From Steroidobacter denitrificans (GTDB taxonomy: Bacteria > Pseudomonadota > Gammaproteobacteria > Steroidobacterales > Steroidobacteraceae): DNA of 64,000 bases. Position 1 is the first letter of the stretch, and every line of letters begins with the position of its first letter. The notes under the pieces are model-generated. The model did no database searches, was not told the origin of the DNA, and worked only from the letters and a program-made list of their open reading frames with translations. Made by a program: the position numbers and the translations under genes. Below are positions 14,545-25,417 of this stretch, piece by piece. The stretch is from NCBI RefSeq assembly GCF_001579945.1, contig NZ_CP011971.1, positions 620,001 through 684,000 on the forward strand. Reading direction: 5' to 3'.

Positions 14545-14923
14545 GTCACGTTCTCCAGTTGCAAGACCAGGTTCTGAGTGTTACGAGAATACTCTCGGGA
14601 AGCGGTCATCGTTCCCGGATGCGTATGCGCGATATTGTGAACTTCTATTTCGCGGATTAATATGCACTCGTAATACCAATTAGGCAACGGATATCGTGCA
14701 AGAGACATCGTGCAATGAGCATCCGATTTCCTTACAGCCGATCTTCTTAATCGGTATTTACAATGCATATTGACCGTGATACGAATTAGTATCACGAATA
14801 CCCGTTCAAACAGTGCCTGTTCGATCAGGTGCAGTGGCGAGGGTCCGAGGGAGCGATCGGCATGACGTGGCGCATGGTGCGCAACAGCGTCGTGCCGACG
14901 ACGATCCTGTCGAGGGAGGGAGT
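14545..14923. promoter_or_regulatory. Divergent control region of ubiM-like gene and nor cluster
   Basis: About 380 bp without a gene. A perfect dyad CGTGATAC-N6-GTATCACG lies at 14775-14796. A related half-site, CGTAATACCAATTAG, occurs at 14669-14683 in the same orientation as CGTGATACGAATTAG at 14775-14789. A 9-bp direct repeat ATCGTGCAA occurs at 14693 and 14707. These are candidate binding sites for an NO- or oxygen-responsive regulator of nor. The dyad does not clearly match the FNR/DNR consensus. GAGGGAGGGAG before 14924 is a strong ribosome site. Confidence 0.5.
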
Positions 14924-15199
14924 ATGTCCGCGCAACGCATCATCCGGTTATCGGTCGCTGTTTTAGCCAGTGGCGTGAGCTTCGCGCTATCCTGGCCCTA
15001 TTGGCGCAACTTCGAGTATTGGGCGGAATCACGCACCCTGTGGTTGGGTTATTTCATCGTCGGCTTCCTGCTTGCCGTCTATGTTTTTTACGTCTTTTTC
15101 AACAGTCTGGGCACACTGTTTGCGCATGACGCACTCGAGCGGGCGGAGCGGGCGGCATCCACCGGCGAGGTTTCGGCGGACGGGGAGGAGGCGTCATGA
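14924..15199 (+). CDS. Small two-helix membrane protein of the nor cluster
   Basis: A 91-aa protein with two hydrophobic segments, about residues 7-24 (LSVAVLASGVSFALSWPYW) and 41-65 (LGYFIVGFLLAVYVFYVFF), and an acidic, Glu-rich tail. ATG 14924 follows a strong GAGGGAGGGAG site. The stop overlaps norC as ATGA, so translation is coupled to the nitric oxide reductase subunits. I do not recognise a named family. The position suggests an assembly or accessory role for the NorCB complex in the inner membrane, which is inference only. Confidence 0.7.
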   Translation: MSAQRIIRLSVAVLASGVSFALSWPYWRNFEYWAESRTLWLGYFIVGFLLAVYVFYVFFNSLGTLFAHDALERAERAASTGEVSADGEEAS

Positions 15200-16164
15200 G
15201 CTGCAACCCTGGAGAGCAGTGCCATGAAGATGTAAAGCGCCGCCGCGCGCTCCTGGTTCTAGCGCTGATGGCTCTCATTTTCTTGGCGCTTTCAGCTGTT
15301 TCTTTCCTCGATTCACGCGGCCAGACGGTGCCGTCCGCCGTCCAATATGCCGGTTTCGATGCCATTGCGGGCAAGCGCGTGTTCCAGTCCTATAACTGCA
15401 TGGGCTGTCACACCATCGTCGGCAACGGCGCCTATTTCGGACCGGATCTCACCAAGCTCTATGATCGTGCCGGACCTGCCTGGCTCGCAGCGTTCCTGCC
15501 TTCGGCCGGCAGTTGGCCGACGAACGGCGCAGTGAGGCTGCAATTGTTGGATAAGGCCGTCGCTGTCGAAGCGGGTGTCGAGTCCATGGAAGCCTATCTA
15601 GAAAAATACCCGGCTGCCGCCGAGCGTATCGCTCGACGCGGCGGCCAGGCATCCCATATGCCGAACCTGCCGATCAGCCGGCAGGAGGTGCATGAATTGA
15701 TTGCTTTCCTCAAATATACATCCGCCATGAACACCGAAGGGTGGCCGCCGGTACCCAAAGTCGACGGGTTGACCTTCCCGATGGCGACACCGATGCCGGT
15801 TGCGGCGCAAAAAATTACGTTTACGTCGTCCGAAGGGGCGGGCCAAGCCGTCACATCACCGGTATCGACGGCTGCGCGTGGCGCCGAGCTGGCCGAGGAT
15901 AACGGCTGTACGGCCTGCCATGCGCCGACCGCGGCAAAGGTCGTCGGCCCCGGCTGGGGTGGTCTCTATGGCTCGACTGTGCAGCTTGCCGACGGATCGA
16001 GCGTGATCGCCGATGACAGTTACCTGACCGAAAAGATCCTGAACCCCGACGCCAGAGTCGTTGCAGGCTACCAAGCCGGACTCATGCCGGCCTTTGCCGA
16101 GATCCTCGACAAAAATCAGGTAGGCGACATCGTTGCCTATATCCGCAGCCTTGGGGGGAATTGA
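15196..16164 (+). CDS. norC: NorC-like subunit with a second cytochrome c domain
   Basis: Membrane-anchored cytochrome c subunit of nitric oxide reductase. It has one N-terminal transmembrane helix (about residues 18-36) and a NorC domain with haem site CMGCH (68-72) and an axial Met candidate in SHMPNLP (155). After a linker of about 50 aa comes a second cytochrome c domain with CTACH (238-242) and GLMPAF (Met297). This second domain resembles the C-terminal cytochrome of caa3-type oxidase subunit II. Normal NorC has about 150 aa and one haem, so this 322-aa form is extended. The ATGA overlap upstream and the 3-bp gap to norB place it in one operon. Confidence 0.87.
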   Translation: MSCNPGEQCHEDVKRRRALLVLALMALIFLALSAVSFLDSRGQTVPSAVQYAGFDAIAGKRVFQSYNCMGCHTIVGNGAYFGPDLTKLYDRAGPAWLAAFLPSAGSWPTNGAVRLQLLDKAVAVEAGVESMEAYLEKYPAAAERIARRGGQASHMPNLPISRQEVHELIAFLKYTSAMNTEGWPPVPKVDGLTFPMATPMPVAAQKITFTSSEGAGQAVTSPVSTAARGAELAEDNGCTACHAPTAAKVVGPGWGGLYGSTVQLADGSSVIADDSYLTEKILNPDARVVAGYQAGLMPAFAEILDKNQVGDIVAYIRSLGGN

Positions 16165-16167
16165 GTC

Positions 16168-17856
16168 ATGTTCAGGATCGAATACCAGACCCAGCGTCTT
16201 TCCCTGCGTTTCTTCATGGTCATGCTGGTGCTGTTCTTGTTCCAGACTGCTCTCGGTCTGTTACTGTCGGCTCAGCATATCGACCCGACGCTGCTTGCCG
16301 GCACACTGAACTTCAATGTCATCCGCACTCAGCATCTCAACCTGGCGATCTTCTGGGTTTTGTGCGGCTTCATCGGCACGATCCTGTTCGTCGGTCCGTT
16401 GCTCTCGAAGCGCGAGCTGGCTGCACCGTGGCTGATCAAGGTCCTGTTCTATGCGCTTCTGGCCATCGTCGTATGGAATCTGGCCACGCAAATGCTGGCG
16501 CAGCAGGGTATCGCCGGCTGGTGGATGGGACAGCCCATGTTCCAGGAGGGGTTGGAATACTTGGAAGCCGGCCGTATCGCCGATATCGTCATCCTGATCG
16601 GTTTCGCCATCCTTTGCTATGTGGTGCTGCGTACCTTTCCGCCGGTGTCGCAATGGAATGAAATCCATTGGGGGCTCGGGATTGGTGTATTGGCACTGAC
16701 ATTGGTTTGGATATTCGGCATGTTTTTTGTCGAGCGGCTCGATCTACAGGAATATTTTCGCTGGTATGTCGTTCACTACTGGGTCGAAGGCGTGTGGGAG
16801 GTGATTCACATCTCGCTGGTCGGCTTCCTGTTGGTGCTGTTGTTCAAGGCCAATGTGAAATCGGTCGGCTATGCCGTGTTCTGGGGTATTTCCCTGGTAT
16901 GGCTGTCGGGTTTGATCGGTAATGCGCACCACTATTTTTGGGTGGGCACGCCGGAATTCTGGCAGTTCTGGGGCTCGCTGTTCAGCGCGCTGGAACCATT
17001 GCCGTTGATCTTCTGCTTCTGGCACATCTATCTCGACGCCCATCAGGATGCCAAGCCGATCCCCAATATGCCGGCTTTCGCCTTCCTGCTGGGTTCGGTG
17101 GTGCTCGAGCAGGTCGGTGCCGGTATCCTCGGCTTCACCATGACCTTTGCACTCACCAATGTATGGTCGCACGGCACCTGGGTGACGGCAGCGCATGCGC
17201 ATCTTGCTCTGTTCGGTACCTTCGGCATGCTCGGTCTGGCCGCCGCCTACTATGCCGTACCGATCATGCGCGGCGTGACGAATTTCGATCAAAGATTGGG
17301 CAAGTTGGCCTTTTGGCTGGTCTTTACCGGTATCTTGGGGCTTGGCTTCGCCTTCGCCATCGGCGGTACCGTCCAGGTGTTCGTCTATCGCGCGTTGGGG
17401 CTGGACTGGTTCGGTGGCGATGTGGCGCCCGCCATGCTGTTCGCCAAGGCTCTGGTATCGCTGTTCGGCATCATCTTCATCGTCGGCGTAGGATTGCTTG
17501 TCTACGATCTTGTTACGCTCGGTCTGCGTGAGAATGCAACCGTTCCACAGGATGCTTTTCCTGCTTCCGCAGGCTGGGGTCGACGGCTGAGCGGCTGGGA
17601 GACCGGCATGTGGCTGCTCGGCATGTGGATCTTCGGCGGGTTCATCACGCTTGGGCTGCTGTCCTTCAATCTGGACACCGTGCAGCAGGGTAGCGCGCTG
17701 TTGTCTTATTTACTGGGGGGTATCGGCTATCCTGGTCTGTTGCTGGTGACGCTGTTCTTTGTCTGGCGCTTCCTGCGCTCGCTGGAGGCGCGTAGTCATA
17801 TCCACGCTGCCGTACCCCCTGCAGCAGCGGTACCCGCGCCGGCCGGTACGCCCTGA
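16168..17856 (+). CDS. norB: Nitric oxide reductase catalytic subunit NorB
   Basis: A 562-aa haem-copper superfamily protein with about 12 membrane helices that reduces NO to N2O. All active-site residues of characterised cNOR align with a constant offset of -4 from the Pseudomonas numbering: haem b ligands His56 and His345, haem b3 ligand His343, FeB ligands His203, His254 and His255, and glutamates Glu207, Glu211 and Glu276. Motifs seen are VHYWVEGVWEV, GNAHHYFW and SALEPLP. The C-terminus carries an extra Ala/Pro-rich tail. No norQ or norD follows; the next gene is convergent. Confidence 0.92.
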   Translation: MFRIEYQTQRLSLRFFMVMLVLFLFQTALGLLLSAQHIDPTLLAGTLNFNVIRTQHLNLAIFWVLCGFIGTILFVGPLLSKRELAAPWLIKVLFYALLAIVVWNLATQMLAQQGIAGWWMGQPMFQEGLEYLEAGRIADIVILIGFAILCYVVLRTFPPVSQWNEIHWGLGIGVLALTLVWIFGMFFVERLDLQEYFRWYVVHYWVEGVWEVIHISLVGFLLVLLFKANVKSVGYAVFWGISLVWLSGLIGNAHHYFWVGTPEFWQFWGSLFSALEPLPLIFCFWHIYLDAHQDAKPIPNMPAFAFLLGSVVLEQVGAGILGFTMTFALTNVWSHGTWVTAAHAHLALFGTFGMLGLAAAYYAVPIMRGVTNFDQRLGKLAFWLVFTGILGLGFAFAIGGTVQVFVYRALGLDWFGGDVAPAMLFAKALVSLFGIIFIVGVGLLVYDLVTLGLRENATVPQDAFPASAGWGRRLSGWETGMWLLGMWIFGGFITLGLLSFNLDTVQQGSALLSYLLGGIGYPGLLLVTLFFVWRFLRSLEARSHIHAAVPPAAAVPAPAGTP

Positions 17857-24712: not shown

Positions 24713-25417
24713 ATGATGAAGTCCTCGTACCGGAGGCGGCTGGCGCCGGCTGGAGCCGCCCTGTTGGTATTGGCGGGCTGCGCCGATGCCGCCTTGGAGC
24801 CGAACGCAATGAAGCCCGATATCGGAAGCGATGCCGATACGCCGATCGTGACGACGGCGAATCCCGATGGGCGCGATCCGGAGGTTCGCGCCAGGGCGGC
24901 GGCGCTGGATTTCAGCGGAAAGTTACGCGGCACCTTGCAACAGGCCATACAGAGCGATGGGGTGGAGGCAGCGGTCGATGTCTGCAAGATCGCCGCGCCG
25001 CAGATTGCCGAGCAGGTCATGCTCGAACATGGCGTGCGCCTCGGACGAGTGGCGTTGCCGGGCCGTAATCGTAATCCCCGACAAGCGGCCGATGGCTGGC
25101 AGCTCGGGGCGCTACAGGACTTCCAGGCCGCAGTGGAACGCGGTGGAGCCGCGGCAGAGCAGGTCATGGTGCAGCGTGACGGGCTGCCGGACGGTGTCGT
25201 TTTGCGCATGATTCGCGGCATCGAGACCGAAACAGGCTGCCTGGCCTGTCACGGTAGCGCCGTGGCACCGTCCGTCCGCGAGGCGATTGCCCGGCATTAT
25301 CCCGGCGATGCCGCGACCGGTTTCGAGATAGGCGATCTTCGTGGCGCATTATGGGTCGAGGTGCTGCCCGGCGCTGCGCAGGATGGAAGTGATCGTCATC
25401 GAGGAGATGCTAGATGA
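24713..25417 (+). CDS. DUF3365 haem-binding lipoprotein
   Basis: A 234-aa exported protein. The N-terminus has a signal with lipobox LLVLAGC (Cys23). The body is a DUF3365 (Tll0287-like) sensor domain, and CLACH (176-180) is a c-type haem attachment site. The order GLPDGVVLRMIRGIETETGCLACHG is typical of such domains. AGAGGAG precedes ATG 24713. The stop overlaps the OsmC gene by 4 bp. It may act as a periplasmic redox or gas sensor or electron carrier; the exact role is unknown. Confidence 0.8.
   Translation: MMKSSYRRRLAPAGAALLVLAGCADAALEPNAMKPDIGSDADTPIVTTANPDGRDPEVRARAAALDFSGKLRGTLQQAIQSDGVEAAVDVCKIAAPQIAEQVMLEHGVRLGRVALPGRNRNPRQAADGWQLGALQDFQAAVERGGAAAEQVMVQRDGLPDGVVLRMIRGIETETGCLACHGSAVAPSVREAIARHYPGDAATGFEIGDLRGALWVEVLPGAAQDGSDRHRGDAR

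Follow-up and report, generated by a model that had tools for sequence, protein, structure and literature searches.

Steroidobacter denitrificans is described as an androgen-degrading denitrifier (PMC5554518), and a 64,000-nucleotide stretch of its genome (positions 620,001 to 684,000 of contig NZ_CP011971.1; hereafter the window) carries genes for a putative nitric oxide reductase (NOR) whose cytochrome subunit, NorC, ends in a second cytochrome c domain. Such a locus raises the question of whether it encodes an ordinary cytochrome c-dependent NOR (cNOR) to which a domain has been appended, or a different kind of NOR in which the point of electron entry is built into the enzyme. The original prediction, that this NOR departs from the NorCBQD set, is upheld by three features: a NorC with two haem motifs, a small gene in front of norC, and a genome in which neither NorQ nor NorD was detected.

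Organization and distribution of the locus

Three tightly packed genes, all on the forward strand of a genome represented by one contig of 3,467,246 bases, encode in order a 91-aa membrane protein, NorC and NorB (Table 1), with the stop codon of the small gene and the start codon of norC sharing an ATGA overlap. Both neighbours that had been assigned to norC, the small membrane protein gene and norB, are real and adjoin it.

Table 1. Features of the two-haem NOR locus and of a second dihaem NorC lineage. Coordinates refer to the window unless a locus is named.
Feature	Coordinates	Strand	Basis
Palindrome GTGATACGAATTAGTATCAC, perfect; candidate regulator site of the operon	14776..14795	.	sequence
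Small membrane protein gene, 91 aa, from ATG 14924	14924..15199	+	homologue in 79/79 related loci
norC, two-haem NorC, 322 aa	15196..16164	+	ORF, Pfam, solved-structure matches
NorC membrane anchor, residues 13-42	15232..15321	+	hydropathy; helix 11-37 in model
Haem 1 motif CMGCH, residues 68-72	15397..15411	+	C, C, H invariant 48/48
Met155, presumed axial ligand of haem 1	15658..15660	+	aligned to Met of 3o0r_C; 48/48
NorC domain 2, caa3-type cytochrome c, residues 223-320	15862..16155	+	1w2l by Foldseek, VIA
Haem 2 motif CTACH, residues 238-242	15907..15921	+	C, C, H invariant 48/48
Met297 (GLMPAF), presumed axial ligand of haem 2	16084..16086	+	aligned with Met of 1w2l; 48/48
norB, catalytic NO reductase subunit, 562 aa	16168..17856	+	sequence, fold, tree
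NorB C-terminal extension, helices 476-501 and 511-543	17593..17796	+	absent from three aligned cNOR-type NorBs
Second dihaem NorC	L176:2014-2889, L177:1899-2795, L178:4947-5861, L183:2183-3070, L184:2225-3076		two haem motifs

A scan using one genome per species returned 154 stretches with relatives. From these the best 80 loci were taken, one of which (L101) was set apart as being of a different type, leaving 79 loci (L022-L100). Within these 79, drawn from the best 80 of 154, norB was found in 75, the contigs of the other four ending first, and both haem motifs lie in one frame in 75, the remainder comprising three loci cut off by a contig end and one whose frame is split. Hosts named in the record titles include Mesorhizobium denitrificans, Castellaniella, Rhodanobacter, Luteimonas and Lysobacter, together with strain HdN1, Verrucomicrobia, Gemmatimonadaceae and Trueperaceae, many of the records being metagenome-assembled genomes (MAGs) in which misbinning is possible.

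The spread of the family is patchy, a full-length match being present in 7 of 196 genomes with the window genome counted. The window genome is the only one among the 14 searched in the genus sample to carry such a match, and an evenly drawn sample of the class contained a NorB of this type in 1 of 369 genomes (1054 bits, the next match reaching 281), indicating that it is rare there. It had been allowed that the two-haem NorC might be a common variant that has already been characterised. It is common, the 79 loci spanning several phyla by title; as to its characterisation, no description of a two-haem NOR variant was found in the portion of the open-licence literature that was searched.

The two domains of NorC

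The two haem motifs reported for the 322-aa NorC are both present, and Pfam assigns two Cytochrom_C stretches to the protein (E 3.3e-20 for the whole protein). Domain 1 matches the NorC of 3o0r (E 4.4e-13) in an alignment that reaches the C-terminal WPP of 3o0r_C. When the window NorC was aligned with those of 47 loci (the rest being omitted for size or unclear starts, and the one-motif rows L091, L092 and L095, at contig ends, and L096, with a split frame, lying outside the alignment), Cys68, Cys71, His72, Met155, Cys238, Cys241, His242 and Met297 were each found to be invariant in 48 of 48 rows, so that the two-haem pattern is not due to chance. Gly78 and Tyr80 are likewise invariant (48/48). 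In the Pseudomonas aeruginosa cNOR structure, a calcium site lies between a glutamate of NorB and a glycine and a tyrosine of NorC, and the corresponding residues are kept in this family, as Glu130 in NorB (38/38) and Gly78 and Tyr80 in NorC (48/48).

Residues 13-42 constitute the sole strong hydrophobic segment of the window NorC by hydropathy. The two domains are joined by an Ala/Pro-rich linker of variable length, in which residues 201-221 have a pLDDT below 50; confidence in the predicted models of NorC and NorB as a whole is moderate (pLDDT 77.8 and 79.5). A pair of Cys residues is found in the N-terminal tail of NorC in all 44 of the aligned rows in which the N-terminus is covered; among other NorC frames, whose starts were assigned by script, no Cys is found in this tail in L077, L089 and L098, and one in L081. 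That this pair, on the cytoplasmic side, might serve in metal delivery is speculation.

Domain 2 has as its best solved sequence match 1w2l, the cytochrome of caa3 oxidase subunit II from Rhodothermus marinus (E 7.7e-18). The same structure was the sole Foldseek match at E<0.001 (E 2.1e-7, TMt 0.92) and the leading VIA-align match (Z 17.1 over 96 residues, rmsd 1.1 Å; runner-up Z 11.3), the listed VIA-align matches covering domain 2 only, so that the NorC half was barely probed there. The resemblance to a caa3-type tail, including the GLMPAF ligand region, had been part of the original prediction and is borne out by all three comparisons. NorC is a canonical NorC joined to a caa3-type cytochrome c domain, which in fold, sequence and C-terminal fusion position corresponds to the tail of caa3 subunit II (1w2l and the CoxB of relatives), with the difference that here it is fused to NorC. 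Unlike caa3 subunit II, the window NorC has no cupredoxin/CuA domain detectable by sequence or Pfam.

The suggested phylogeny of the second domain against CoxB tails gave a concordant picture: in a tree of 61 tails, 48 NorC tails and 8 CoxB tails group together (100/99), apart from five dihaem NorC tails of another type, in an alignment of 99 columns and with just these 8 CoxB tails. That the 48 domain 2 rows share one origin is compatible with the data (p-AU 0.407), which do not demonstrate it. Recent capture of a host CoxB tail was considered and rejected, since 26 of the 27 host genomes searched (the window genome and 26 chosen from the 80 loci by titles without MAG or uncultured) lack a further homologue of domain 2 at E 1e-5; the single exception is a CoxB-like protein in G213.

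NorB

The best solved matches of the window NorB, by sequence and by fold, are 4xyd and 3o0r. Nine positions were mapped from cNOR structures onto an alignment of the window NorB with those of 37 loci, the rest being omitted for size or unclear starts. His56, Glu130, His203, Glu207, His254, His255, Glu276, His343 and His345, which we take to be the ligands of haem b, haem b3 and FeB, the two glutamates (207 and 276) and the Ca-site glutamate (130), are invariant in all 38 rows, such that the window NorB carries every ligand and glutamate sought of a cNOR.

Outside these positions the protein is divergent. The window NorB shares 30.0-33.1% identity with the 60 listed out of 311 matched plasmid records, all 311 falling below 60%, and Thermus plasmids are at 32.9-33.2% identity when the family member from L098 is used as query. 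Family members are 553-588 aa in length (562 aa in the window) versus about 450-475 aa in cNOR. The NorB of cNOR has 12 transmembrane helices; the model of the window NorB has 14, a broken helix (262-275/278-293) being counted once, and the two extra helices are C-terminal. In the NorB tree the family forms its own 38-member clade (100/100, stem 4.45), outside both the cNOR and Thermus proteins and the four qNORs included; the tree is midpoint-rooted and the programme warns that long branches may join falsely, so that the attachment of the clade is unsure. Within the clade, the nearest relative of the window NorB is that of Mesorhizobium denitrificans (100/99) rather than those of Steroidobacteraceae MAGs, a pairing that suggests horizontal transfer.

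The small membrane protein

The product of the first gene contains two hydrophobic segments (residues 5-24 and 36-67). Conserved in its relatives are a loop of the form LSWPYWRDFEYWxES and an LFxH motif, with His68 invariant in the 40 aligned rows (the window and 39 loci, the rest being omitted for size or unclear starts). All 79 loci, taken from the best 80 of 154 stretches, have a homologue in front of norC, confirming that the small protein accompanies the NOR. On the strength of this conservation, it is proposed to be a third subunit or an assembly factor.

Two candidate identities were considered. A likeness by eye to NorH found no support from hhalign against the one NorH sequence compared (probability 1.8%), and a Pfam match to EI24/CysZ (E 2.9e-5, 24.7 bits) falls under the family cut-off of 32 and was set aside. 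The small proteins of two loci of the Deinococcota group (L098:7672-7965 and L089:2145-2420) have a His-rich tail, suggesting metal binding.

NorQ and NorD

NorQ and NorD have been described as essential for insertion of FeB into cNOR (PMC9976466). The absence of norQ and norD from the neighbourhood of norC, noted from the outset, holds for the whole 3.47-Mb window genome, in which queries from the Paracoccus plasmid found neither NorD nor NorQ; the two genes are therefore not simply located elsewhere. The same queries recovered their own plasmid and also, as an independent check, matched a plasmid of Azospirillum (50% identity for NorD and 72% for NorQ). The CbbQ_C profile (PF08406) likewise had no match in the window genome; among 14 control genomes, Bacillus subtilis alone was matched.

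A second NorB, with an E value in the cNOR range (8.2e-128 to 5.9e-159), is present in eight of the 27 host genomes, and in all eight the NorQ and NorD matches adjoin this second cNOR by coordinates, adjacency being seen in the four stretches that were inspected. A NorQ-like and NorD-like pair is present in only one (G196) of the 19 host genomes without a second cNOR. NorQ and NorD thus track the ordinary cNOR and not the two-haem NOR clade. The pair in G196 (Mesorhizobium denitrificans; L182:4167-8328), a NorQ-like AAA+ protein and a NorD-like VWA protein, has no nor gene within 12 kb and, by eye, an amidase-like gene just upstream, and may serve another metalloenzyme. A weak NorQ-like match (30%) stands alone in G220. 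Matches in the qNOR range were obtained in 24 of the 27 host genomes, and none in the window genome, G196 or G197.

Relationship to known nitric oxide reductases

With the cNORs of P. aeruginosa (3o0r) and Roseobacter denitrificans (4xyd) the window enzyme shares the haem, FeB and Ca-site residues and both glutamates of NorB, as well as the anchor and domain 1 of NorC. It differs from them in that their NorC has one haem c, whereas the window family has two CxxCH motifs and two conserved Met residues (48/48). Further differences are the 30-33% identity, two extra C-terminal helices and separate clade of NorB, the conserved small upstream gene, and a window genome without NorQ/NorD.

The Thermus norCBH operon, described as encoding a heterotrimeric enzyme (PMC7694296), is likewise a three-gene operon with a small membrane protein, has an adjoining Rrf2-type gene, and shows no NorQ or NorD on the nor plasmid, which alone was searched. 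The Thermus NorC, however, has one haem motif instead of two, norH is last in its operon whereas the small gene is first here, and the Thermus NorB joins cNOR (98/96), with the window-type NorB not clustering with it. A Thermus-type norC-norB-norH set (NorB E 1.3e-183, NorH E 1.1e-8) is found in a member of the window's own family (L186:3188-5541, G064).

The qNORs have the NorB fold and membership of the haem-copper superfamily in common with the window NorB, but consist of one fused chain of about 760 aa and occupy a separate branch (four in the tree), whereas norC and norB are separate genes in the window. The eNOR, sNOR, gNOR and CuANOR types, for which replacement of the oxidase tyrosine by Q, N or D and a cupredoxin second subunit are described (PMC8756737), are unlike the window NorB, which has the cNOR glutamate pattern and a cytochrome partner.

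A second dihaem NorC lineage was detected in five loci (Table 1), with open frames of 284-305 aa containing CINCH and CxACH motifs. It resembles the window NorC in having a second haem c motif at the C-terminus, but its tail is of another type and its NorB lies inside the cNOR clade. NorQ is present in four of these five stretches and NorD in three, the misses falling at contig ends (the L183 contig stops inside NorQ, and that of L184 ends 0.8 kb past norB). The L183 member (G012) comes from the window's own genus. In the locus set apart from the scan, in a Cloacimonadota MAG (L101:7917-10074), a two-motif NorC is encoded together with a NorB of cNOR type, which in the NorB tree has this second lineage as its sister. 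Dihaem NorC has arisen more than once, the second lineage being unrelated, and a two-haem NorC is therefore not in itself the mark of the new clade.

One scheme sorts NORs into cNOR, qNOR, bNOR, eNOR, gNOR, nNOR and sNOR (PMC12569097); by its active site the window clade would fall under cNOR in this scheme. The nor genes of Castellaniella have been called cytochrome c-dependent norBC (PMC11046850), and those in that account may be of the two-haem type, to judge from other Castellaniella genomes. Overall, the two-haem NOR family is probably a distinct NOR subfamily.

Regulation and denitrification context

For the 57 of 79 loci whose start could be placed without difficulty, the regions upstream of the small gene were compared. 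The sequence TTGAY-N4-RTCAA, which we take to be an FNR/DNR-type box, occurs in 20 of the 57 (mean 0.055 and maximum 1 in shuffled sequences) and is lacking in 37, and an nsrR-like gene adjoins the operon in divergent orientation in 11 of the 79 loci (from the best 80 of 154). In the window itself there is no FNR-type box upstream of the operon and, by eye, no nsrR-like gene among the ORFs beside it. The pattern of the window palindrome, TGATA-N6-8-TATCA, was found in none of 57 homologous upstream regions.

The window genome also contains nosZ, followed by genes read by eye as nosR and nosD, and encodes a NirS-type protein (731 aa; 2255489-2257684 of the genome, reverse strand; L195:5490-7685) in which two haem c motifs occur. 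This protein has an extra N-terminal cytochrome domain, such that nitrite reductase and NO reductase each have a cytochrome appended; one account describes a NirS extended by a cytochrome domain, C1, and finds it in the nir genes of Chloroflexi only (PMC8756737). Elsewhere in the window, a Tll0287-like protein (PF11845) with a CLACH motif (24713-25414) is followed by an OsmC-like gene and, by eye, a thioredoxin.

The notion that the window NorB is the genome's sole NOR was dropped, as a COX1 scan and alignment brought out two further, divergent haem-copper oxidases with NOR-type residues (L203, L204): one (2572961-2574256 of the genome, reverse strand) has Q at the tyrosine position, and the other (2586106-2587422, forward strand) has N, with an SCO/SenC-like gene just downstream by eye. 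The Q pattern is listed for eNOR and the N pattern for sNOR/CuANOR (PMC8756737). A third divergent haem-copper oxidase (2567366-2568565) has F at this position. No cNOR/qNOR-type NorB other than that of the window was found in the genome, though it is not certainly the only NOR there; given the two other NOR-type haem-copper oxidases, NO reduction in this host need not rest on the window enzyme.

Proposed mechanism and alternatives

The reading that we consider likely is that the three-gene operon encodes a membrane-bound NOR of the cNOR/qNOR branch, with electron entry at a tethered haem c, a small two-helix protein serving as an obligate third subunit or assembly factor, and insertion of FeB without NorQ/NorD. 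Electrons would enter at haem 2, the C-terminal caa3-type haem c of NorC, and pass to haem 1, the NorC haem c docked on NorB, and thence via the low-spin haem b to the haem b3/FeB centre, where 2 NO + 2 H+ + 2 e- would be converted to N2O + H2O. Because domain 2 resembles the caa3 tail, a tethered donor is its natural reading; the second cytochrome would replace a soluble donor or its docking site, in the manner of the caa3 oxidase tail. That the enzyme accepts electrons with no soluble donor, as originally suggested, is plausible by this analogy. The donor to haem 2 could be complex III directly or a small soluble cytochrome, and domain 2 taken alone fits either a direct link to complex III or a dock for a soluble donor.

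It is conceivable, more tentatively, that the enzyme represents a separate class of NOR, an obligate trimer of small subunit, dihaem NorC and 14-helix NorB operating in an NO-respiring supercomplex fed by complex III, with FeB loaded without NorQ/NorD, perhaps via the Cys pair of NorC and the His of the small subunit. An ordinary cNOR bearing a decorative fusion, in which a soluble cytochrome or cupredoxin reduces haem 1, domain 2 is a mere extra dock and the small protein is incidental, would be in keeping with a domain 1 that is a complete NorC with its ligands, and with a linker whose variable length and low model confidence would permit domain 2 to swing away. It is nevertheless unlikely, in view of the retention of domain 2 and its Met in 48 of 48 rows and of the small gene in every one of the 79 loci (from the best 80 of 154), and of the position of NorB outside the cNOR clade.

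The oxidase-type tail, and the ranking of cbb3 oxidases next after NORs in the fold search, could be taken to indicate that oxygen reduction, or the reduction of both substrates, is the main activity of the enzyme and that its caa3 electron-entry module was borrowed. This is very improbable, given that the NOR-marking Glu207 and Glu276 are invariant (38/38), that alignment finds the HPEVY-type tyrosine motif missing from the window NorB, that the closest folds and sequences are NORs, and that FNR/DNR-type boxes and nsrR-like neighbours accompany part of the relatives. In 11 of 79 loci the nsrR-like gene beside the operon is a hint that regulation is linked to NO, and haem 2 might then be thought of as an NO or redox sensor that gates NorB and carries no electrons; with a His/Met motif typical of electron carriers, and with the electron-transfer domain of caa3 oxidase as its closest likeness, such a role is very unlikely.

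Implications

NO reductase catalyses the step at which nitrous oxide is made. The two-haem family would place at this step a clade that has an electron-entry module of its own and for which no FeB-insertion machinery is known, and it is found in Rhodanobacter, in Luteimonas and in genera some of whose cultured strains bear the name of denitrifiers (Castellaniella, Mesorhizobium denitrificans). Two questions can thereby be put to the test, namely whether insertion of FeB into a cNOR-like enzyme is possible without NorQ/NorD, and whether a NOR can be coupled directly to complex III. The small gene and the two-haem norC provide markers for surveys that may otherwise pool this clade with cNOR.
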